Source: a virus
IMG/VR virus record: IMGVR_UViG_3300007770_000024
Location: 1 to 46,738 of that record
Direction: 5' to 3' (one strand)
Length of the DNA: 46,738 nt
The number at the start of each line of letters is the position of its first letter. Within the stretch, counting starts at the first letter, position 1. Below the pieces are notes generated by a model. The model did no database searches and was not told where the DNA came from. It saw only the letters and a program-made list of their open reading frames with translations. Both the position numbers and the translations under genes were made by a program. Positions 3,154-43,512 of this stretch are shown piece by piece.

Positions 3154-5646
3154 ATGTCGAAACCTACAAGCCTTAACCCCCCTTTGGGTCTTTTGAACAA
3201 CATTGGAACAGCTACGGGCAAGCCTCGTATTACCGCTGAAGAAAGCGCCGCCTCTATCGCTAGGATGACACAAAAGCAGGCCCTGTCTCATCAGGTGTTC
3301 AAGAATATCTCGAAATTTAAGGCAATAGTTTTAAGGGTCAAGCGAGGAGCTTCAGGTCCGGGCCTTTATAACAATTCTGAAAAACTAGACTCAACGGTGT
3401 CTCGCCACGCTCCCGCTTCTTGGGGTGATAGACTTTTTGGTATTTCATCTCCACTAGAATTGGACGAAGATGTTCAACTAATTCAAATTTGGGCTAGAAT
3501 ACCCGAACTTCACGCCGGATTAGAACCCCCCGAAGGTCTTTTGGGAGAAGCAACAGACAGAGATAATTGGCTAATAGATCAGCACGATATTTTCACCGCG
3601 CAAGATACTGATGTTCCCGAACCGAAACCGGGAGATATTGTGTGGGTTGATTACGGAAATCGAAATAATTTCACTGACCCAATTTATTTGGGACCTGTGC
3701 TCGGAGGCAAGGCCCAGATAACAGTTTCAAACAAATCTTCAAACACTCTAACGTCTATTCATTCTAGCGGCGGCAAAGGTTGCGTAGGTTCTCAACTAAA
3801 CGGCGCCAGTCCCAAAGGCGATTCTTTAGCTGGTTCAAATACACCGGCCACCACAACGATGGACAAGTTTACCCAGTATGGCACTTGCTACCCCACAAGA
3901 AAAAAGGGAGGAGGTAACAATTGCAAGGGTAAGAATTCTAAGGGGCAATATATTTGGTGGCTCTACACGCACGAAGCTAAACACCTCCCTGCGATAAGAC
4001 AATATTGGCTCAAAGGCGGCAATCGTGCTCGGCTAAAAGCCTATGTAATTTGGGCGGCAGATTATTGGATCAAAAAAGCAGGAGCAAAAAACGAGGTTGT
4101 GGACATAGGCCCGTTGCTGGGCTGGGAGAAGGGCTTAGAGCCTTGGCGATTGTTGGCTCAAATTGTCTGGGGAGTTTTTTATAGAGAGTGTCGTTGGAAC
4201 CCGCTTGGAACTTTGGGAGGGACCTTGAGAAACAGCCCTTCAAGAGCCATTGAGCTTAATGATACTGGCTATGGAATGGGACAACCTCCAAAGGCCATTC
4301 GATTCGACTGGGAAAAGACTACGGATAAGAAAAATCTTCTTGGAAAGATGGAACATTGGGAACTGCTTGATCCAAAGCTCTCAATCGACTTCACGATCAT
4401 CTCTTATTTGAGACTTTTCAGAAACAGAAAAAAAACATATAAAAAAGACGGCCTCCTCAGTCACATGAAAAAAGGTGGTAAGAATACTTTTTCTTTGGGT
4501 ATCTGGTGGGCTGGCGGCGGCGCAGAACACAAATATACAAGAAAACACAACGATATAAAAGTAAGAGGCCCCACTCTTTGGAACAATTTAAGTGGGGAGG
4601 CCACTGTTAAGAGCGCTATAAAATCTCTTTTAGGATCAGAGACAATAAAGCAGGTGATCGACAAACGACCAGTACCAGCGTTCCCTCCCAACGGCGGCGA
4701 AGGTCGTTCTGCAGAGGAAGCTTTTGGTGTTTGGAGGGCAATAGCTGAAAAGAAAGGCGTAAACCCAGCAACAGATACAAGTCCCGCCTCTTCGAAGTCA
4801 AAGAAAAAGGCAGGGTCAAAGTCACAACTACCGTCAACAGATTCTCCCCCCCCTACGTCTAATTGTCACGAGGAGGACGAATCAACCCCTCAAGACCACC
4901 CTCAAGGCAAGCGGAAAAAGAAAAGAAATTTAAGTCCACTTAAGCTTGAAATTGCAGACATTCCCTCTAAGTGGAAAAAGGGCGCCAAGTTTAGAGACTA
5001 TAAAAGAAGAGGTGGTCTGGATCAAATAGTTTTACACGAAAGTCTTTCCTCTGGTCGAAAATCAACAGAAAGAATTCTGACCAAACGAAACCTTGGAGTA
5101 CATTTTATTATTGACCGACACGGCGGAATAACCCAGCACGTGCCAATTGAAAGAGCGTGCAGTCATGCAAAAGGAAACAACCACCGCTCCGTTGGGATTG
5201 AGATCGAAAATCCGTTTTTTGGAAAAAAGCTTTCAAAAACATCTGCTAAGAGCGAAGTAATTCCAGTTCAGTGGCTTTGGAGAACAAAGTCCAGAGGAGG
5301 ATACCTAACAAACACCTCGGCACAGCTTAACAGTTTGTATAAAGTGATAAGCTGGGTTTGTAAAAAAGCTCCGACGATTAAAAAAACTGTTCCCGGTCAA
5401 AAAGGCTCCTCTTTTTATTGGGGAAGCGCAGGAGGTAAATTCTCCAGTATGTCTGGGATAATCCCTCATAACTGGGGAAAACACCCTCACGGAGACGGTC
5501 TGATGGCTGCACATTATATGTTCCTCAGACTGAACAAGGGAATGAGCCATTCGGCAGCATACAAAAGAACAATAACCGTCTTAAGGGCTGTTGCGTCGGG
5601 GAAAAAACCAAGATGGACAGACATAAACACAACGATGAAAGCGTAG
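3154..5646 (+). CDS. Baseplate hub protein with transglycosylase-like and amidase domains (gp5-like)
   Basis: An 830-residue tail-tip enzyme. Residues about 48-188 resemble the OB fold of T4 gp5 (PGDIVWVDYGNRN, then DPIYLGPVLGG). Residues about 325-470 look like a soluble lytic transglycosylase: E345 in YRECRWNP is the likely catalytic glutamate, and GYGMGQ at 372-377 matches the family's G-x-MQ-type motif. A Ser/Pro/Lys-rich linker covers about 545-600. Residues about 620-800 are an N-acetylmuramoyl-L-alanine amidase domain (amidase_2/PGRP type): H628 in VLHES, S679-E683 (SVGIE), and H772 with D781 in PHNWGKHPHGDG are candidate zinc or catalytic residues. The two activities would cut glycan strand and peptide stem during injection. 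T4 gp5 has only one lysozyme domain. The following gene may supply the needle. Confidence 0.85.
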   Translation: MSKPTSLNPPLGLLNNIGTATGKPRITAEESAASIARMTQKQALSHQVFKNISKFKAIVLRVKRGASGPGLYNNSEKLDSTVSRHAPASWGDRLFGISSPLELDEDVQLIQIWARIPELHAGLEPPEGLLGEATDRDNWLIDQHDIFTAQDTDVPEPKPGDIVWVDYGNRNNFTDPIYLGPVLGGKAQITVSNKSSNTLTSIHSSGGKGCVGSQLNGASPKGDSLAGSNTPATTTMDKFTQYGTCYPTRKKGGGNNCKGKNSKGQYIWWLYTHEAKHLPAIRQYWLKGGNRARLKAYVIWAADYWIKKAGAKNEVVDIGPLLGWEKGLEPWRLLAQIVWGVFYRECRWNPLGTLGGTLRNSPSRAIELNDTGYGMGQPPKAIRFDWEKTTDKKNLLGKMEHWELLDPKLSIDFTIISYLRLFRNRKKTYKKDGLLSHMKKGGKNTFSLGIWWAGGGAEHKYTRKHNDIKVRGPTLWNNLSGEATVKSAIKSLLGSETIKQVIDKRPVPAFPPNGGEGRSAEEAFGVWRAIAEKKGVNPATDTSPASSKSKKKAGSKSQLPSTDSPPPTSNCHEEDESTPQDHPQGKRKKKRNLSPLKLEIADIPSKWKKGAKFRDYKRRGGLDQIVLHESLSSGRKSTERILTKRNLGVHFIIDRHGGITQHVPIERACSHAKGNNHRSVGIEIENPFFGKKLSKTSAKSEVIPVQWLWRTKSRGGYLTNTSAQLNSLYKVISWVCKKAPTIKKTVPGQKGSSFYWGSAGGKFSSMSGIIPHNWGKHPHGDGLMAAHYMFLRLNKGMSHSAAYKRTITVLRAVASGKKPRWTDINTTMKA

Positions 5647-5655
5647 GAGAGAAAA

Positions 5656-6651
5656 ATGACCACAAATGTAAAAGCAACGTTAAATAAAAGAGCAAACATT
5701 GGCGACGGCGATGATCCAAATTATGGTGGAGCCGGGTGCAAAGTTATGCACGAAGAGCTTCCCAATTTCGCCGAAGCTCCTTGTGAAGATGTCTGGGTAG
5801 GTCAAAACAACTCTTATATTGTTTTAGGCAGGGACAGACCTGCAGGTATAACTTCCGGCGCTGGAGGCGGCGGTGAAACTCGCTGTGGAATGATTGACCT
5901 TGTTGCTGGAAGAAATTCCGCCAATATAATCAACAATATCGAGGGAAAGCAAATCAACACCAATCCTAGTTTTAAAAAAGATGCTGCCCGAGTCTATATA
6001 ACTCAAAAAGCGAAAAACATTGATGAATACCTTGACCTGCAAGGTGCTGACGAAGCTTTTAACTTCGGAGACCATAGTATAAACCATTTCTCTCCTCAAG
6101 ACAGGTCTGCCGTTGCAATCAAAGCAGATGATGTCAGAATTGTCGCCAGAGAGAGTATAAAAATTGTAACAGGGGTCGATCATAAGGATTCACACGGCGG
6201 TCATTTATCTTCTCGCGGAGGCGGCATTGATTTAATTGGAGGTGGCATCGAAGGAGAGCAACAACCTCTCGTGAAAGGCCACGCCCTGAAGACATGTCTA
6301 TTAGACATATACAAGCAACTAGATGATGTTGTTGGAATGTTGAATACTTTTGTTTCTGTTCAGACGGCATTCAATAGAGTGGTTGCAAATCATAAACACA
6401 AAGTTACTATCGAAGAGGCTCTCGGTCGAATGACAACGGGAAAAGGCTCTGGCGAGCTGGGCGGCGTCACAAATCATCCGGACTATGCCCTTGCTTTTTA
6501 TCACGGCCCCAGAGCGATGATACAGGCAGAACTTATGTGTAAAAAAGACGCAGTGATAAAAAAGGGTACGCTCGGCGCTCAAAAAATTAAATATTTAGAA
6601 CTTCCGTGCTCAATGGATAATATTTTAAGCACACATAATACGACAAATTAA
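5656..6651 (+). CDS. Putative baseplate spike/needle protein
   Basis: A 331-residue virion protein that probably forms or caps the central spike under the hub. Residues about 153-174 (AVAIKADDVRIVARESIKI) show the alternating hydrophobic V-x-I pattern of the triple-stranded beta-helix of gp5/VgrG spikes. Glycine-rich segments flank it (GAGGGGE and SSRGGGIDLIGGG). The C-terminal half is more globular and contains conserved-looking Cys residues. A strong ribosome binding site, AGGAGAG at 5645-5651, overlaps the hub stop and fixes the ATG at 5656. In T4 the needle is part of gp5; here it appears to be a separate gene. No PAAR motif was seen. Assignment rests on the strand pattern and gene order. 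Confidence 0.6.
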   Translation: MTTNVKATLNKRANIGDGDDPNYGGAGCKVMHEELPNFAEAPCEDVWVGQNNSYIVLGRDRPAGITSGAGGGGETRCGMIDLVAGRNSANIINNIEGKQINTNPSFKKDAARVYITQKAKNIDEYLDLQGADEAFNFGDHSINHFSPQDRSAVAIKADDVRIVARESIKIVTGVDHKDSHGGHLSSRGGGIDLIGGGIEGEQQPLVKGHALKTCLLDIYKQLDDVVGMLNTFVSVQTAFNRVVANHKHKVTIEEALGRMTTGKGSGELGGVTNHPDYALAFYHGPRAMIQAELMCKKDAVIKKGTLGAQKIKYLELPCSMDNILSTHNTTN

Positions 6652-6656
6652 TAAAA

Positions 6657-9600
6657 ATGACAAATACAATAGAAATAAAGATAGATGTAATAGATTACAA
6701 ACAACAGATACAAAACGTCACAAACGCTTGGAGTGCGGCTGCTGCAGATGGGAAAGCTGCCCCTGATCCGGGAATCGACGTTGAGTTGTTGTACAGGGAG
6801 GCTTTAAAACTTACGAAAGTAAAAGTCGGCGAGGTTGCTGTCAAAGGTGGTCCTTTTGCTGACGCGGTTGACCTGTTGGAATTGAAAAATGCAGCCAATT
6901 CAACCCCCGCTGGAGTGAGCCAACCTCATAATTGTGACCCAAGCCACCCAGATTATGTTGGTGGGTATGGCGCAGGTAACGACCCAGATCCGGAAGTCGA
7001 TACCGATGGAAAATTAGTTGTTAAATCTGTGGGCGTCTGGTACACAGTTGAAGCCGACCAAGCTAAAATAACAGAAGAAAACATTAAAAAAGATCCAGCC
7101 ATTGCTCCCATCGTTTCTGATGCTCAAAAACCTTGGATGGATAAGGCAGATGGAACGATAGAACTTCTCAATATCGACGGCGAAAATTATTGGGCATGTA
7201 TCGTCCGAACATCAGCAAAAGTGGGCTCTGATTGGGTGCAAAAAAAGCTTAATGCTTGGAGCAGTCTTGGCAAGATTGAGGGCGGAGGTGTCAGTCTTGA
7301 CAGTGGTCGAAAATGGTACAGAAACAAAGATATGTCCGGTGATCCGGTTCCAAATACTCAGGATCCACGAGTTCCTGCCCTTCATCGATTTATAAAACAC
7401 TGGACAATTGATATGGCTCAAATTGAAAAGAAAGATTGGTATGAAGAGGAAGCGACGTTGGGAACCCTCAAGGAACTGGGTGAAAACCAACTTGAAAGTG
7501 ATTTGGGCGCGAATTTAAAACAGATTGACCTATTTGCAAACTGGTTAATTATCAATATGGAGACTTTCCCAATAAGAACCGAATTTGGCCTTGATTGGGG
7601 GACCAAAAACTACATTGCAATACCCTCGGCAGAAAGAGTTTGGAGAATTCTTGTTCACGACAATGTTAAGACAGAACTTAAAAAAGACACAGCCAAACTT
7701 GGAGCCCATTTAGCAACCCAAAAAGAAACTACTCAGAAAGAGCCAATTGTGTTTTGGTCAGGGGGAATCGCCAGAAGATTTGGACTGGCCCCCTCGGGCC
7801 TTGCAAGAGATCTGAACGTTGTCGCTTCAATTTTGGAAGCCTATCAAAAAGAAATTAAAAAAAGCAAAACAATGACAACCCCGGTAGATTTAGCAATTTA
7901 TGCCGACAAGTTACGAGATTTCCCATCAGCCTTTCAGACGTTGCTAGAACAGCAGAAGGGATATAAAGGAGTGGCCCCAAATCTTAATGACGACCTCAAA
8001 GACCAGTTTCAAATTCAAATTGATAAAAATTGGAAAATTGTTGCCATAAGTAATAAAAGAGTTGGAAAGGGAGTTAGTTCAACCGACGAAGGTGTGCTTG
8101 TTACAGGCGATGCAGTCAAGGCTGAATACTTTGAGGTCGGAATCCCTCCAGTTGGTGTCGTTCTTGGTGACTCGACAGTGTTACATTACCTCCACCAATC
8201 TGCAAAAATTTTAGACAAGATAGGCTCCCCCGAAGGTGTTAAATTATATCACTGGTCGGACTTTCTTAAAGATTTTCATTACCCCTTTCCTGAAATAAAG
8301 CCGGTTGGAGGACCTGTCACTGAAGTTTTAGACGATATTATAAACTTTGGCTTACCACCCGGAGGTCTGAATGATGTATTTGCAGACCCAGATGGTCGAA
8401 TCTCCGGTAAACTTTTACACAATATCAATAGACAAGCTGACGCTACATACAACTTGATCGGCGAGAGAATCTTTGGAGGACAGATCCTTTCTAAAAGAAT
8501 GACAAGGATTCAATCTGTTGAAGACATGTTCGGTCAGATGCTTCACAAAGTCAGTATTGCAGAACTCATCGGCATCGCATTTAAATGTTTAGCAAAATAT
8601 ACAGATCTGGCAGGCTATTTAGACGCTGGTTGTGGGTACGCAATTGAAACTTTAGGTCTCGAAAAGGCTGAGAAAGAACTTTTGCCGATGCTAGAAAAGA
8701 AAGATCCTCAAACAGCAGCCTTTTTGAGACAGAAGCTTGACGACATGAAGGCCATGCTCGTCGGAGCGCAATCAGGCCAGTGGATTTCAGCAGCAACAGA
8801 CAACAAAGTGGTTGCGACAGTTGATAAAGCAGATGCAACAGGGTTTATGAAGGAGGCTGGCTCTAAAGATGTAAAAGCACAGCTAGACAAGGGCCTGAAG
8901 AATATCCTCAGTGGTCTCGAAACATCATCACCCGAACGAGTGGCAATTTGCGCAGCTTTAATCTTATTAATACCGGCAATATGGCAACTGATTAAAGAAG
9001 ATATAGACGAAGAAAAGTTGTGGAGATCTATGAAGAAAAGACTCAGAGTCTTTATTATGGCAGACTTTCCAATTATTGACTTTTTGGGCGCAATTGGCGA
9101 TATGGTCGTGCAAATAATGTTGAATGTTGTGAGAGACATTCTTATGTCGCTCATCGAGCGGATTATAGGAAAAATTGATCAATATTGCTCAGAATCCGCA
9201 GACAGCGACCTCATTAACTCAGACCCAGAGGATTCACCCTATAATCAGGGGAATATAAACGATATCATTCGAGAAAACGCCTCCCCAGAAGAATTTGCCA
9301 AAGCTATTGCAGATGTGACTGCGGAACTTGGATCAACGGAGAATGTTATAACATTTGTTGACTTTACAGACTTTTTTGACGATTTGTCCGAGAAGTTATC
9401 AGTGAGTGAGTTGTGTTCGCTGATGGGCGGTCAAGTGTCACAGGCGCTGAGATCAAGGATTGAGCTTCTGGTCCAAGAGAGCCATCCCAATTTGCTCCCT
9501 CTTTTGAAACGTAGGATACTTTTCGAAAAAATATTTAAATCTATTTCCGCTGTAGTTGATCCATCGGCTTGTCGAAGACTTGTGGAAGAACACGAAGAGA

Positions 9601-37396: not shown

Positions 37397-37942
37397 ATGT
37401 TATTAGGACTTGATGTATCCACTTCAATAACCGGAGCAACCGTTATTAACAGTGACGGCGAACTTGTGTTTTGTGAAGCTTGGAGGACAGATAAAAAAGA
37501 CTTATCTTTTTTCGATAAGCTAGAAAGAATAAAGAAGAGAATAGAGGGGATAAAAAAACTCTATAAAATCAAACAGGTTTATATTGAAGAGCCTTTGATG
37601 GGTTTTAAGTCAGGGTTCTCTTCAGCACAAACAATTGCAAAGCTTCAGCGCTTCAACGGCGCAGTTTCTTGGATTTGCAAAGAAACCTTCAGAAGAGAGC
37701 CAATTCACATCCGAGCCTCTAGTGCTCGCAAGCATTGTGGAATAAAGGTCGAGAAAGGAAAAAAAGCAAAAGACGTTGTTTTAAATTTTCTTCTTGACAG
37801 CGAGCCTAGTTTTGAGATATCATATACCAAATATGGTAATCCGGCCAAAGGCTCATACGATATGGCCGATAGTATTGTGATTGCAAGGGCAGGCTTTAAA
37901 CTTTGGAAAGAGAAAAACTCCAACTACTCTCAAACATATTAG
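37397..37942 (+). CDS. RuvC-like Holliday junction resolvase (RNase H fold)
   Basis: A 181-residue crossover-junction nuclease of the RuvC/RNase H superfamily that would resolve branched DNA during replication and packaging. The first strand carries LGLDVSTSITG with acidic residue D6. E64-E65 in YIEEP is the second acid, and D155/D158 in SYDMADSIVIA supply the last metal ligands, all in the expected order and spacing. Length matches RuvC (about 170 residues). It is functionally analogous to T4 endonuclease VII but of a different family. It overlaps the primase gene by 40 bases. A strong -10 element precedes it. Confidence 0.85.
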   Translation: MLLGLDVSTSITGATVINSDGELVFCEAWRTDKKDLSFFDKLERIKKRIEGIKKLYKIKQVYIEEPLMGFKSGFSSAQTIAKLQRFNGAVSWICKETFRREPIHIRASSARKHCGIKVEKGKKAKDVVLNFLLDSEPSFEISYTKYGNPAKGSYDMADSIVIARAGFKLWKEKNSNYSQTY

Positions 37943-38838
37943 GTCGATCTTATAGGACCAACGACGAACACCTATATTCGTGTCCTTTCTGTAAACACCA
38001 CAAAAGAAAACTCTCAGTTAACTTGTCCAAAAATGTCTTTAAGTGTTGGATTTGTGAAGAAACTGGAAGCCCCGGCAAGCTGGTCTTCAAGTTCGGCACA
38101 AGCCCTCAGAGAGAAGAGTGGAAACGCCTCTCAGGTCAGGTCGATATTTCAGAGTTCGACAATCTCTTTCAAGGGTCAGAAATCGTCGATAATTGCCAAA
38201 AAATCAACCTCCCTAAAGAGTTTGTCTCTCTTGCGAACAGTGACCTTCCCCTAAGTGCAAAGCCTGCTTTAAAATACCTTAAAAAGCGAAATATTACAAA
38301 AGGGGATATTTTAAAGTGGAAGATTGGATTTTGCTCTTCTGGAGATTATAAAGGTCGCGTTATATTCCCCTCCTTTAACAGTGACGGATATTGCAACTAC
38401 TTTGTTGCGAGATCATATAATAGTAGAGAATGGATGAAATATAAGAACCCACCGGCCTCAAAAAGTGATATTGTTTTTAATGAGTTGTATGTTGACTTTG
38501 ATGAGGATCTTATTTTGGTCGAGGGAGTATTTGATGCGATTGTTGCAGGAAACGCCATTCCATTGCTGGGATCTTCGATGAAGGTTAAGTCTCCTTTGTT
38601 CTCACTTTTGATTGATTATCCAAAAGAAATATTTATTGCCCTAGATCACGACGCTGAGAAGAAGGCTTCGAGAATGATAAACCTTCTAAAGAGGTACAAC
38701 CGGACAGTCTATAAAATAGACACCTCAGACATTGAAGATGTTGGTTCGATATCAAAAGAAGAATTCTTAGAGAGAAAAGAACAGGCCATACCGATGACAG
38801 AAGACAACCTGATTCTTCAAAAACTCTCAGGAATATAA
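37903..38838 (+). CDS. DNA primase (zinc-finger plus TOPRIM)
   Basis: A 311-residue primase that would make RNA primers at the replication fork, analogous to T4 gp61. The N-terminus has a CHC2-like zinc finger: C27/C30 in CPFC, H32-H33 and C48/C51 in CWIC. The TOPRIM part has E207 in LILVEGVFDAI and the acidic D248-H-D250 in IALDHD, as in DnaG. The length is short for DnaG and fits a phage primase without a helicase-binding domain. The only plausible start is the TTG at 37903, within the resolvase gene, because no ATG precedes the zinc finger. The helicase gene is not in this window. Confidence 0.85.
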   Translation: MEREKLQLLSNILGRSYRTNDEHLYSCPFCKHHKRKLSVNLSKNVFKCWICEETGSPGKLVFKFGTSPQREEWKRLSGQVDISEFDNLFQGSEIVDNCQKINLPKEFVSLANSDLPLSAKPALKYLKKRNITKGDILKWKIGFCSSGDYKGRVIFPSFNSDGYCNYFVARSYNSREWMKYKNPPASKSDIVFNELYVDFDEDLILVEGVFDAIVAGNAIPLLGSSMKVKSPLFSLLIDYPKEIFIALDHDAEKKASRMINLLKRYNRTVYKIDTSDIEDVGSISKEEFLERKEQAIPMTEDNLILQKLSGI

Positions 38839-38846
38839 AAAAATGT

Positions 38847-38880
38847 TTGACAAGTTGAATTGATATGGTATAATAGAGCT
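38847..38880 (+). promoter_or_regulatory. Strong sigma-70-type promoter, probably leaderless mRNA start
   Basis: A perfect -35 TTGACA (38847-38852), a 16-base spacer and a perfect TATAAT (38869-38874) with an extended TGG before it. The expected transcription start is about 38881, which is the A of the nuclease ATG, so the mRNA would have almost no leader. The 12 bases TATGGTATAATA (38864-38875) also occur upstream of the resolvase gene. This is the best promoter in the window. Confidence 0.75.
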
Positions 38881-41800
38881 ATGAAATTTGTTCACATTGC
38901 AGATACACATATTAAAAATCTAAAGTTTCACACTGAATACCGTAGTGTTTTCAACCACTTGTATGAAGCTCTCAAAGAAGAGAATCCCGACTACATAGTC
39001 CATTGTGGGGACTTGGCACACACAAAGACACAAATCTCTCCAGAGTTTGTAGAGATGTGCGCCAACTTTCTAAACAGTTTAGCAGACATTGCTCCAACTT
39101 ATGTAATTCTCGGCAACCATGATGGAAATTTGCGTAATGCAAAGAGGCAAGATGCTATTACCCCCGTCGTTCAAGCCCTCGACCATCCAGATCTCCATTT
39201 ATTAAAGAATTCCGGAGAGGTCAAGCTAAGAGATAATTTCACCTTAAATGTGTTGTCTATTTTTGACGAAGAAAACTGGGAAGAACCTTCGGATAAAGAC
39301 AATATTAATATTGCCATGTATCACGGAGCAATAAGTAATTGCCAGACGGACACCGGCTGGGTCCTTGAGCACGGCGATCATAGCGTGTCAGTCTTTAATG
39401 ACTTTGATTATGCTTTTTTGGGAGACATTCACAAAACCAACCAAGCTCTTGATAAGAAAGGGAAAATTCGTTATGCCGGATCAACGGTACAACAGAATCA
39501 CGGCGAGACAAATGATAAGGGTTTTTTGATCTGGGAGATCGAAGATAAAAATAAGTATACCTGCCGCCACGTCGAGCTAAAGAATCCCAAGCCATTTATC
39601 ACGGTAGAACTGACCCCAACAGGGAAGATACCCAGCAAGGCAGAGGTTTCTCCCGGCGCCCGAATTAGGTTGGTGTCCAACAATAACCTCTCAGTCGATG
39701 TTCTTCGAAGAGCAGTTGATGTTGCTAAGAGTCGTTTTAAACCAGAAACGGTGACTTTTCTAAATAGAGCAATTGGAGAGAGGGGAGAGATCGACGAACT
39801 TTCCGATGACCTAATCAACGAGGACCTTAGAGATCCTGCAATTCAAGAAGAGTTGATGGAAGAATACCTCAAAGACTATCAGGCCGACAGCAGCACGATG
39901 GACAAGGTGTATGCTCTGAATAGAAAGTTCAATACTGTAATTGAAGAGAAGGAAGAAGTTGGAAGAAACATTAACTGGAAACTAGACTCGATAGAGTGGG
40001 ACAATCTGTTTAATTATGGAGAGGAAAACAGTATTAATTTCAATAAGTTAAGCGGCATTGTTGGTATTTTTGGAAAGAACTTCTCTGGCAAGTCTTCCAT
40101 CATAGACAGTCTTCTTTTCACTCTCTACAATTCTACGTCGAAGAACGAAAGAAAGAACTTAAACATAATCAATCAGAATAAGACCAACGGCAGAGGAAAG
40201 GTCAATATTACGATTGGCAGCAAGCAGTATACTGTCGAAAGAACTTCTGATAAATACGTTAAAAAGCTAAAGGGCGAAGAGACGATGGAGGCAAAAACAG
40301 ATGTAGAATTCAACTGTTATAGTCCGGTCCTAGACGATACGCAAAGTCTAAACGAGATATCGAGAAACGAGACAGACAAGTCTATTCGCAAGCTATTCGG
40401 CACAATGGACGACTTTCTCTTAACGTCCATGTCTTCTCAGTTAGACTCTCTAGCTTTTATCAACGAGGGTTCAACAAAGCGAAAAGAGATATTAGCAAAG
40501 TTTCTTGACTTGGAGATTTTTGATAAGAAGTTTAAACTTGCAAAGGATGAGGCTTCGGATCTGCGCGGAGCCCTAAAAAGATTAGAGGGCCGAGAGTTTA
40601 CAGATGAAATCTTTGAAGCAGAGAAAGAAATTATTTTTAATGAAAGGGATACGAGAGAGCACAAAGAAGAGTGTGATCTTTTTAGAAAAGAGATTCTAGA
40701 AGATGAGCAAGCTCTGGCAGAGCTAAATGAAACTATTGATGCAATTCCAACAGAACTTATTGATATTGATGCGGTTTTGTTGCGGCTTAAAACTCTGGAG
40801 AGAGAATACTCAGACAGGCTGAACGAGGAAAAGACTCTCACCGGCACACTACAAGCCAAAGAAGAGTTGATTGGGAAAATAGCCTCATTCTTGTCTTCTT
40901 TTGACGCTGATGATGTTCGCGAGAAGCAAGACCTTATCGAGAACAAGCAGGAAGAACTTAAGTTTATTCAGAACGAGATCAAACAACACGAAACAATGAT
41001 AGGGGTTCAAGAGAATAAAACTCGCTTATTGCAAGAGGTTCCTTGCGGCACAGAGTTTTCACATTGCAAGTTTATTAAAGATGCCTATGAAGCGGTTGAT
41101 TTGCTCTCGCTTGTAGAGGGCAAGAGAAGTGATTGTGCAGAGAAAGAAACAAAGATTAATAATGAAATCAATGACTTAGAGCCTGAAAAGGTCATTGAAC
41201 ACCTCAATAAATATGAAGAATTGATGGGCAAGAGATCAAAGCTTTCGTCAGAGATCACCCAAACAAAGCTTCAGATCGAGACCAACAAGAATGAATATAA
41301 CAATCTCTTAAAGAATATCGATAACTTGAAAGAGAAGCAGGAGCTTTATGGAAAGAATAAAGAGGCCATCGAAAACAAAGGCGGCTTTATTAAGAAACAA
41401 AAGAAAATAAAACAAGACCTGCAAGCGAAGGAAGATAAGCTACAGGTTTGTGAGAATGAAATGTTGGAACTCTACAAGTCTCACGGATCTGCAGAGCAAA
41501 AGCTTGAACACTTGAAAGAACAACAACAAGAGCTTGTTGATTTGCGAGAAGAATACGCAGCCTACGACCTGTTCATGAGATGTATGCATTCAGGCGGAAT
41601 TTCGTATGATATTATTAAGAAAAAGCTGCCTATAATCAACGAAGAAATCGCAAAGGTACTTGCAACTGTTGTTAATTTTGAAGTATTTCTGGATGATGAT
41701 GGAAAAAGATTGAATATGTTTATCAAGCATCCAAAATATGACCCGCGACCACTTGCAATGGGCTCGGGGGCGGAAAAAACAATTGCCGCAATGGCAATTA

Positions 41801-42033
41801 GATTAGCGCTTCTTTCGGTGTCTAGCCTGCCGAAAAGTGATATTTTCATACTTGATGAACCCGGTACAGCGCTTGATGAAGAAAATATGGAAGGATTTGT
41901 TCGTATTTTAGAACTAATTAAATCATACTTCAAGACTGTTCTTCTCGTTTCTCACTTAGACAGTCTTAAAGATTGTGTTGATATGCAGATATCAATTGAA
42001 GAGCGAGAGGGTTATGCTCATGTTGAAATTTAA
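38881..42033 (+). CDS. Fused SbcD-SbcC (gp47-gp46) recombination nuclease/ATPase
   Basis: A 1050-residue single chain combining both subunits of the Mre11-Rad50 type nuclease. Residues 1-about 260 are the SbcD/gp47 phosphoesterase: HIADTHIK (D8, H10), VHCGDLAHT, LGNHDGN, MYHGA and FLGDIHK are the metal-binding motifs in order. After a linker near 335-370, SbcC begins with Walker A GKNFSGKSS (398-406). A long coiled coil (about 500-900) carries C722 and C729 as a possible hook. The signature GSGAEK (961-966) and Walker B FILDEP (D992, E993) complete the ATPase. In T4 these are two genes. I chose ATG 38881; the TTG at 38860 lies within the promoter. It would resect DNA ends for recombination-dependent replication. 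Confidence 0.9.
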   Translation: MKFVHIADTHIKNLKFHTEYRSVFNHLYEALKEENPDYIVHCGDLAHTKTQISPEFVEMCANFLNSLADIAPTYVILGNHDGNLRNAKRQDAITPVVQALDHPDLHLLKNSGEVKLRDNFTLNVLSIFDEENWEEPSDKDNINIAMYHGAISNCQTDTGWVLEHGDHSVSVFNDFDYAFLGDIHKTNQALDKKGKIRYAGSTVQQNHGETNDKGFLIWEIEDKNKYTCRHVELKNPKPFITVELTPTGKIPSKAEVSPGARIRLVSNNNLSVDVLRRAVDVAKSRFKPETVTFLNRAIGERGEIDELSDDLINEDLRDPAIQEELMEEYLKDYQADSSTMDKVYALNRKFNTVIEEKEEVGRNINWKLDSIEWDNLFNYGEENSINFNKLSGIVGIFGKNFSGKSSIIDSLLFTLYNSTSKNERKNLNIINQNKTNGRGKVNITIGSKQYTVERTSDKYVKKLKGEETMEAKTDVEFNCYSPVLDDTQSLNEISRNETDKSIRKLFGTMDDFLLTSMSSQLDSLAFINEGSTKRKEILAKFLDLEIFDKKFKLAKDEASDLRGALKRLEGREFTDEIFEAEKEIIFNERDTREHKEECDLFRKEILEDEQALAELNETIDAIPTELIDIDAVLLRLKTLEREYSDRLNEEKTLTGTLQAKEELIGKIASFLSSFDADDVREKQDLIENKQEELKFIQNEIKQHETMIGVQENKTRLLQEVPCGTEFSHCKFIKDAYEAVDLLSLVEGKRSDCAEKETKINNEINDLEPEKVIEHLNKYEELMGKRSKLSSEITQTKLQIETNKNEYNNLLKNIDNLKEKQELYGKNKEAIENKGGFIKKQKKIKQDLQAKEDKLQVCENEMLELYKSHGSAEQKLEHLKEQQQELVDLREEYAAYDLFMRCMHSGGISYDIIKKKLPIINEEIAKVLATVVNFEVFLDDDGKRLNMFIKHPKYDPRPLAMGSGAEKTIAAMAIRLALLSVSSLPKSDIFILDEPGTALDEENMEGFVRILELIKSYFKTVLLVSHLDSLKDCVDMQISIEEREGYAHVEI

Positions 42034-42896: not shown

Positions 42897-43094
42897 ATGA
42901 AACACACCTTAGACTCACTTTTAGAGAGACTTTTGTCGAGAAAGTTGATGGTTTGGTTAACAGCAACGGGGCTCATGTTGACAAACACCGTCCCGCTTCA
43001 ATCTAGTGATTGGGTTGCCATTTCACTGGCATACATTGGCATTGAAGGTCTTGCAGATATTGCTACTCGCTGGCGTCACGGACACGGGAATTAA
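42897..43094 (+). CDS. Small membrane protein, candidate holin
   Basis: A 65-residue protein with two hydrophobic segments: residues about 17-33 (LMVWLTATGLMLTN) and about 39-55 (WVAISLAYIGIEGLADI), separated by a short polar turn, with a basic C-terminus RWRHGHGN. Two membrane helices with charged ends next to an endolysin gene is the usual arrangement of a class II holin. The predicted N-terminal charge is mixed. The strong ribosome site and the position 4 bases before the M15 endolysin favour a holin. A small membrane protein with another role cannot be excluded because holins share no motif. Confidence 0.6.
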   Translation: MKHTLDSLLERLLSRKLMVWLTATGLMLTNTVPLQSSDWVAISLAYIGIEGLADIATRWRHGHGN

Positions 43095-43098
43095 GAAA

Positions 43099-43512
43099 TT
43101 GAATATACCTCTTTCAAAAAACTTTAAGAAGTCCGAATTTACGTGTAGAGATGGCACAGAAGTACCCCCAGAGCTTATGGACAATTTAAGAGAGTTGGTC
43201 CAAAATCTTCAGATTATTAGAGACCACATTGGCAAACCAATTCATGTTATATCGGGATATCGAACTCCCAAGTATAATAGAAGAATTGGTGGCGCTCGAA
43301 AATCTCAACATATGAAAGCCAAAGCGGCTGATATTAGAATAAAGGGGATGTCGCCTAAAGAAATTAGAGAAATTGTGGTAACATTGATTAAAGAGGGCAA
43401 AATAAAGAAAGGGGGCGTCGGCCTCTATAAAACTTTTGTCCACTACGATGTGCGCGGCAGAAACACTCGCTGGTCAGGTAAGGGTGTAAAAGATGCCAAG
43501 GAGAAAAAATGA
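43099..43512 (+). CDS. M15-family endolysin (D-Ala-D-Ala / L-Ala-D-Glu peptidase type)
   Basis: A 137-residue zinc peptidase of the M15 family that cleaves peptide bonds in peptidoglycan. NIPLSKNFKKSEFTCRDG at the N-terminus and HVISGYRTPKYNRRIGG match the family. The zinc ligands are H71 and D78 (H-x6-D in SQHMKAKAADI) and H115 in FVHYDVRG. The TTG at 43099 matches the family's usual N-terminus; a GTG at 43006 would add 31 residues read mostly out of the holin-like gene. No signal peptide is visible, so export would depend on a holin. The stop overlaps the next start as ATGA. Confidence 0.85.
   Translation: MNIPLSKNFKKSEFTCRDGTEVPPELMDNLRELVQNLQIIRDHIGKPIHVISGYRTPKYNRRIGGARKSQHMKAKAADIRIKGMSPKEIREIVVTLIKEGKIKKGGVGLYKTFVHYDVRGRNTRWSGKGVKDAKEKK

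Follow-up and report, generated by a model that had tools for sequence, protein, structure and literature searches.

A single-gene SbcD-SbcC (Mre11-Rad50) fusion of the Mimivirus R555 type in a viral contig, with varied coil tips among its relatives

The window analyzed here is the whole of the IMG/VR contig IMGVR_UViG_3300007770_000024 (46,738 bases), which may be a fragment. One of its genes encodes SbcD (gp47-like) and SbcC (gp46-like) fused in a single protein, whereas in most organisms this nuclease and its ATP-driven arm, which act on broken DNA ends, are separate proteins. The Mre11/SbcD nuclease comes first, followed by a capping domain, a helix-loop-helix (HLH) and a complete Rad50/SbcC ATPase with its coiled coil. 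The gene and its parts are as follows.

38881..42033, plus strand: fused Mre11(SbcD)-Rad50(SbcC) gene, 1050 aa plus stop, with the ATG at 38881
38881..39618, plus strand: Mre11/SbcD phosphoesterase core, residues 1-246 (Pfam Metallophos; VIA-align to S. aureus SbcD)
39619..39768, plus strand: capping domain, residues about 247-296 (AlphaFold2 (AF2) model; match to the 7dog nuclease and capping domain)
39835..39951, plus strand: predicted HLH, helices 319-333 and 337-357, the Rad50-binding counterpart of Mre11 (AF2)
39952..39975, plus strand: fusion linker, residues 358-365, between the HLH and the first Rad50 strand (AF2; R362-N363 invariant)
40072..40098, plus strand: Walker A GKNFSGKSS, residues 398-406 (G398-S406) (motif; alignment of relatives)
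40513..41586, plus strand: coiled coil, residues 545-902, with an N arm (545-719), the tip and a C arm (730-902) (AF2 secondary structure)
41044..41067, plus strand: pair of cysteines at the coil tip, C722-x6-C729, a candidate zinc hook of non-canonical form (sequence; relatives)
41752..41778, plus strand: ABC signature region, residues 958-966 around S962-G963 (alignment of relatives)
41839..41862, plus strand: Walker B region with D992-E993, followed by the D-loop (alignment of relatives)

An earlier note on this DNA had described a single 1050-residue SbcD-SbcC protein, and this description was confirmed: a search of the record itself revealed no internal stop in the frame, and profiles from both Pfam and PHROGs matched the two halves. 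Pfam Metallophos covers residues 1-185 (9e-14) and AAA_23 residues 372-589 (1e-10), while the SbcD-like and SbcC-like PHROGs cover residues 1-464 (1e-33) and 191-1045 (2e-47), respectively. Since both PHROG profiles are almost 1000 positions long and each match crosses the SbcD/SbcC junction, these two families probably already include fused proteins. The protein also displays sequence similarity to solved Rad50, SbcD, and Mre11 chains.

Four of the Mre11/SbcD phosphoesterase motifs (DxH, GDxxD/H, GNHD, H, and GHxH) are present, as D8xH10, GD(43-44)LAH, GNHD(78-81), and H148. The fifth, which the earlier note had counted with the others, reads GDIH (GD-I-H, 181-184) and not GHxH. Walker A, a long coiled coil, the signature and Walker B were all located in the same frame, as proposed, in a head interrupted by the coiled coil and completed by a D-loop reaching D999 and an H-loop (H1025); these ATPase motifs are all conserved in the relatives and contain invariant residues. 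Metal-ligand positions are likewise kept, save for the His-to-Asp change of motif V. Near relatives show this change, which affects a predicted metal ligand, without exception, and R555 of Mimivirus and several other phage fusions share it, as might be seen if the nuclease chemistry had been lost or changed and the protein acted mainly as an SMC-like tether or clamp. However, the remaining metal-ligand motifs are invariant and aspartate can bind Mn, making a working altered site as likely. We regard a protein acting mainly as a tether or clamp as unlikely.

The AF2 monomer model (mean pLDDT 79.6, pTM 0.48, 51-row alignment) comprises the nuclease core, the capping domain, a disordered stretch at residues 298-309 (pLDDT under 50), the first Rad50 strand at residue 366, and a C-terminal head lobe. 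In this model, the Rad50-binding HLH of Mre11 is predicted to be retained just ahead of the Rad50 head. Alignment with VIA-align matched residues 364-1050 to Rad50 3av0_B (Z 24.6) and residues 1-295 to S. aureus SbcD 7dog_A (Z 24.2, 272 residues, rmsd 3.8). The T. maritima Mre11 chains 3tho_B and 3qg5_C, which include the HLH, matched residues 1-357/359, with a high overall rmsd probably reflecting domains that sit differently. The best viral matches of the model in Foldseek were homologues from Tupanvirus, Harvfovirus, Yasminevirus, and other giant viruses, aligned over their length. Placement of the Mre11 part beside the base of the Rad50 coil, as suggested in the earlier note, is plausible in view of the predicted HLH kept just before the head, although the position of the nuclease relative to the head in the monomer is unreliable at this pTM. 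The disordered stretch could also be read as a cleavage site, the chain being made as one and then cut at about 298-309 or in the linker to give an ordinary two-subunit complex. We consider this very unlikely, as a protease site is not known and the linker residues adjoining the Rad50 strand are invariant.

Many phages carry the two genes adjacent and in the same order, and in Pseudoalteromonas phage XG4 they share a frame and are separated by about 6 nt, so that a missed stop or frameshift might have merged two neighboring genes during sequencing or assembly. In this sequence, there was no stop or frameshift near 39900-40000. A first scan of viral sequences turned up at least 573 related stretches, and the protein was full-length in one frame in 83 of the 84 first loci. 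Further scans brought the number of loci with a full-length single-frame protein to 295 (208 distinct sequences), from independent assemblies, and none of the near relatives was split at the linker; the search for the same fusion in relatives thus bore out the proposal. Incomplete copies either run off the end of a contig or locus or come from distant phages, split or divergent, and the two exceptions within the clade (L002 and L132) are broken within the nuclease half just past motif V, away from the junction. Residues R317, Q322, N347, R362, N363, and W366 of the linker region are invariant in 51 relatives of 54-63% identity. An artefact was rejected on the basis of these relatives, its probability being negligible.

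Host genomes were also considered as the origin of the gene and rejected, since the matches in a scan of the genome_contigs collection were contigs of viruses that had been binned into MAGs, along with distantly related archaeal Mre11 genes. The plasmid collection returned four weak partial matches and no fusion close to the window protein. The MAG chromosome of a WOR-3 bacterium (CP070664, locus L095) contains only a piece of the phage gene, adjoining runs of N, which is probably a scaffold artefact.

Fusions of Mre11 and Rad50 have been reported in Mimivirus (R555), Bacillus phage 0305phi8-36, bacterial plasmids, and eukaryotes, and are of recurrent origin (Yoshida, Claverie and Ogata, 2011; PMC3175470). 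In R555, the HLH is retained with a linker of suitable length (9-12 residues are expected between the HLH and Rad50), and the nuclease motifs carry GDxxH and a change of His206 to Asp; location of the nuclease at the coil base has already been argued for the fusions (PMC3175470). The window protein closely fits this description and is a fusion of the R555 type, a kind already published in 2011. It is likewise a nuclease-first single chain that keeps the capping domain and HLH length, with a short linker (about 8 residues, 358-365) near the expected length, and it shares with R555 both GDxxH and the His-to-Asp change in the last motif. In contrast to R555 (1351 aa), it is about 300 residues shorter and comes from a tailed phage. 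Marine viral fractions are rich in homologues of R555, borne on scaffolds that also carry phage primases, but full-length environmental fusions were beyond reach in 2011 and were inferred from short marine scaffolds (PMC3175470). The window fusion also lies beside a DnaG-like primase, and the present loci confirm, at full length and in context, the 2011 inference that marine R555-like fusions reside largely in tailed phages, in a primase neighborhood.

The same fusion is found in Microcystis phage Mel-JY01 (WWT39521.1; 28.6% identical to the window protein across 99% of its length) and in the huge phages LR756508 and LR756501, although these three have CxxC coil tips, unlike the window protein. 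SbcD and SbcC also form one gene in Rhizobium phage RHph_TM61, Escherichia phage IME392, Xanthomonas phage XacN1, Listeria phage LMTA-57, Sphingomonas phage PAU, and Tenacibaculum phage pT24. T4-type phages also have both enzymes, with their genes in this order, and the window has a T4-like baseplate gene, but their gp47 and gp46 are two genes, at times with a small gene between them, and have GHxH and a CPTC tip. SbcCD of E. coli has the same folds and motifs but is encoded by two genes with a 4 nt overlap and has GDxxD, GHxH, and a CPLC tip. The view that SbcD and SbcC are two genes in T4 and bacteria is incomplete, since giant viruses and many phages carry the two fused, as do some plasmids and eukaryotes. 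In a tree of the nuclease and head, the fused state required at least four changes, three of them forced by well-supported branches, and the fusions of XacN1 and LMTA-57 nested among split relatives. This tree, which has long branches and open forks so that we rely only on the at least three forced changes, was built without pT24 and without archaeal Mre11/Rad50 pairs (a motif search of the archaeal loci revealed no Rad50 frame). Judged from these sequences, single-gene fusions are present in many phages and have arisen several times.

Three features lie immediately upstream from the fusion.

37397..37942, plus strand: RuvC-like Holliday junction resolvase (phrog_159, 1e-11)
37903..38838, plus strand: DnaG-like primase, upstream neighbor (phrog_47, 3e-44; TIGR01391)
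38847..38874, plus strand: perfect sigma70-type promoter, TTGACA-16-TATAAT, whose -10 box stops 6 nt short of the ATG

The order RuvC-like resolvase, primase, fusion is repeated in almost every relative whose flank is long enough, and the primase also lies upstream from the fusion in Mel-JY01 and LR756508. A T4-like wedge protein of the baseplate is encoded elsewhere in the window, which also gives a weak match to a late sigma factor of the T4 type. The source is taken to be a tailed marine phage carrying T4-like genes for the baseplate. The TTGACA-16-TATAAT promoter occurs once in the window (0.02 matches expected), and promoters with at least 11 of 12 matches were found within 60 nt upstream from the gene in 28 of 146 relatives (0.25 expected). 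The window gene has no Shine-Dalgarno sequence, while most relatives have a Shine-Dalgarno-like site, which suggests that the fusion mRNA may be leaderless or nearly so. Downstream from the fusion, at 42897-43512, lies a small, possibly holin-like membrane ORF, present at this location in most near relatives and followed by an M15 peptidase (endolysin family); these form a probable lysis pair adjoining the replication genes. Possession of its own strong host-type promoter in many relatives is compatible with early expression of the fusion and with action chiefly against host DNA, or against blocks placed by the host on the ends of phage DNA, instead of a part in phage replication. In contrast, the conserved linkage to the primase and the RuvC-like resolvase suits a role in replication and recombination, and we consider the host-directed role decidedly unlikely, somewhat more so than loss of the nuclease chemistry.

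Beyond the directly established domain order, motifs, folds, single-gene conservation, and primase and RuvC-like neighbors, the window gene very probably specifies a complete Mre11-Rad50 (SbcCD) nuclease in one chain, of the R555 type and from a marine tailed phage, working as an M2R2 complex in end processing. Contacts between the nuclease parts and between the ATPase heads of two chains would build a dimer with the usual M2R2 head, the HLH of each chain docking on its own coil base across the 8-residue linker. ATP binding would close the heads on DNA, and hydrolysis would open the nuclease, leading to trimming of DNA ends or hairpins, while the cysteine pair at the coil tip would tether two complexes through zinc. 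The phage would use the enzyme like gp46/47 of T4, providing the 3' tails on which recombination-dependent replication draws. Given what is known of Mre11-Rad50 and T4 gp46/47, the best reading is a nuclease that is gated by ATP and processes ends in this mode of replication; no UvsX-like recombinase, polymerase, or helicase was identified among the searched genes of the 46.7 kb, and the replication role is accordingly drawn from knowledge of the family. The fusion would guarantee equal synthesis of both halves and their joint transfer as a unit. It had been proposed that it fixes a one-to-one stoichiometry, a weak argument because the canonical Mre11-Rad50 complex is M2R2 and already has this ratio; the fusion would then fix expression, inheritance, and docking in cis rather than alter the complex. 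With subunit ratio and docking fixed, a one-chain Mre11-Rad50 would suit structural work.

Variety of the hook among close relatives is less expected than the fusion itself. The tip cysteines of the window protein are C722 and C729 (Cx6C), without the usual Rad50 CxxC spacing. A tip cysteine pair was kept in all 205 fused clade proteins sampled (142 Cx6C, 14 Cx7C, and 49 CxxC), and the CxxC tips of the clade occur in two sequence contexts. At least three hook forms were recognized: HEYDPDCxxC, DKxCxxC, and VPCGxxFxxC, the cysteines of the last being separated by 6 or 7 residues. Outside the clade, CxxC was present in all examined phage and E. coli sequences with a recognized tip pair. As sisters with near-identical heads have CxxC, this spacing does not define the ATPase family here. 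In a tree of the heads, built without coil or tip by a quick method with SH-aLRT support only, switching between CxxC and Cx6/7C required 20 changes, of which 18 were forced by well-supported branches; in a smaller set with three tip classes counted, 10 of 11 changes were forced. The heads of L327 (Cx6C) and L343 (CxxC) are 97% identical and their tips 26%, whereas same-type pairs with head identities of 95-99% share on average 89% of tip residues and 84% of coil residues. Sharp recombination breakpoints were not found around the hook, identity declining gradually from heads to tip, and a single clean swap of a hook cassette was thus not supported. Old recombination and rapid replacement both fit the switching. 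We tentatively suggest, as a reading that we think doubtful, that the hooks of the fused enzyme in this phage family are interchangeable and of three or more forms, and that close relatives have time and again acquired a different tip and outer coil, through recombination or through replacement at a very high rate. Were pairing restricted to hooks of one type, the tip would be a self/non-self tag choosing which phage DNA ends are tethered, or an ever-changing target that escapes an inhibitor. A description of hook-type exchange was not found in the searched part of the literature. Such an exchange, if it holds, would offer a natural tip-swap set for probing the role of the zinc hook.

A few copies were interrupted or differently divided. 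In LR756508 (L002:5656-6573), the nuclease half is broken just past motif V by about 900 bases containing a 305-residue zinc-ribbon ORF that resembles a homing endonuclease. A search of positions 4900-7200 of this locus for Rfam introns gave no match, and the insert may be either a divergent intron or a free-standing inserted gene. At the same site past motif V in L132 (3965-3978), the nuclease and ATPase parts overlap in different frames without an inserted gene. In Yersinia phage TG1 (L088:2755-3429), an annotated GIY-YIG homing endonuclease interrupts a split gp47. The nuclease halves of SbcCD-type complexes seem to be repeated targets of insertion. Finally, Yersinia phage YerA41 (L136:2405-5442) is divided elsewhere: one gene holds SbcD and most of SbcC, and a second gene, overlapping the first, encodes the final 185 residues.
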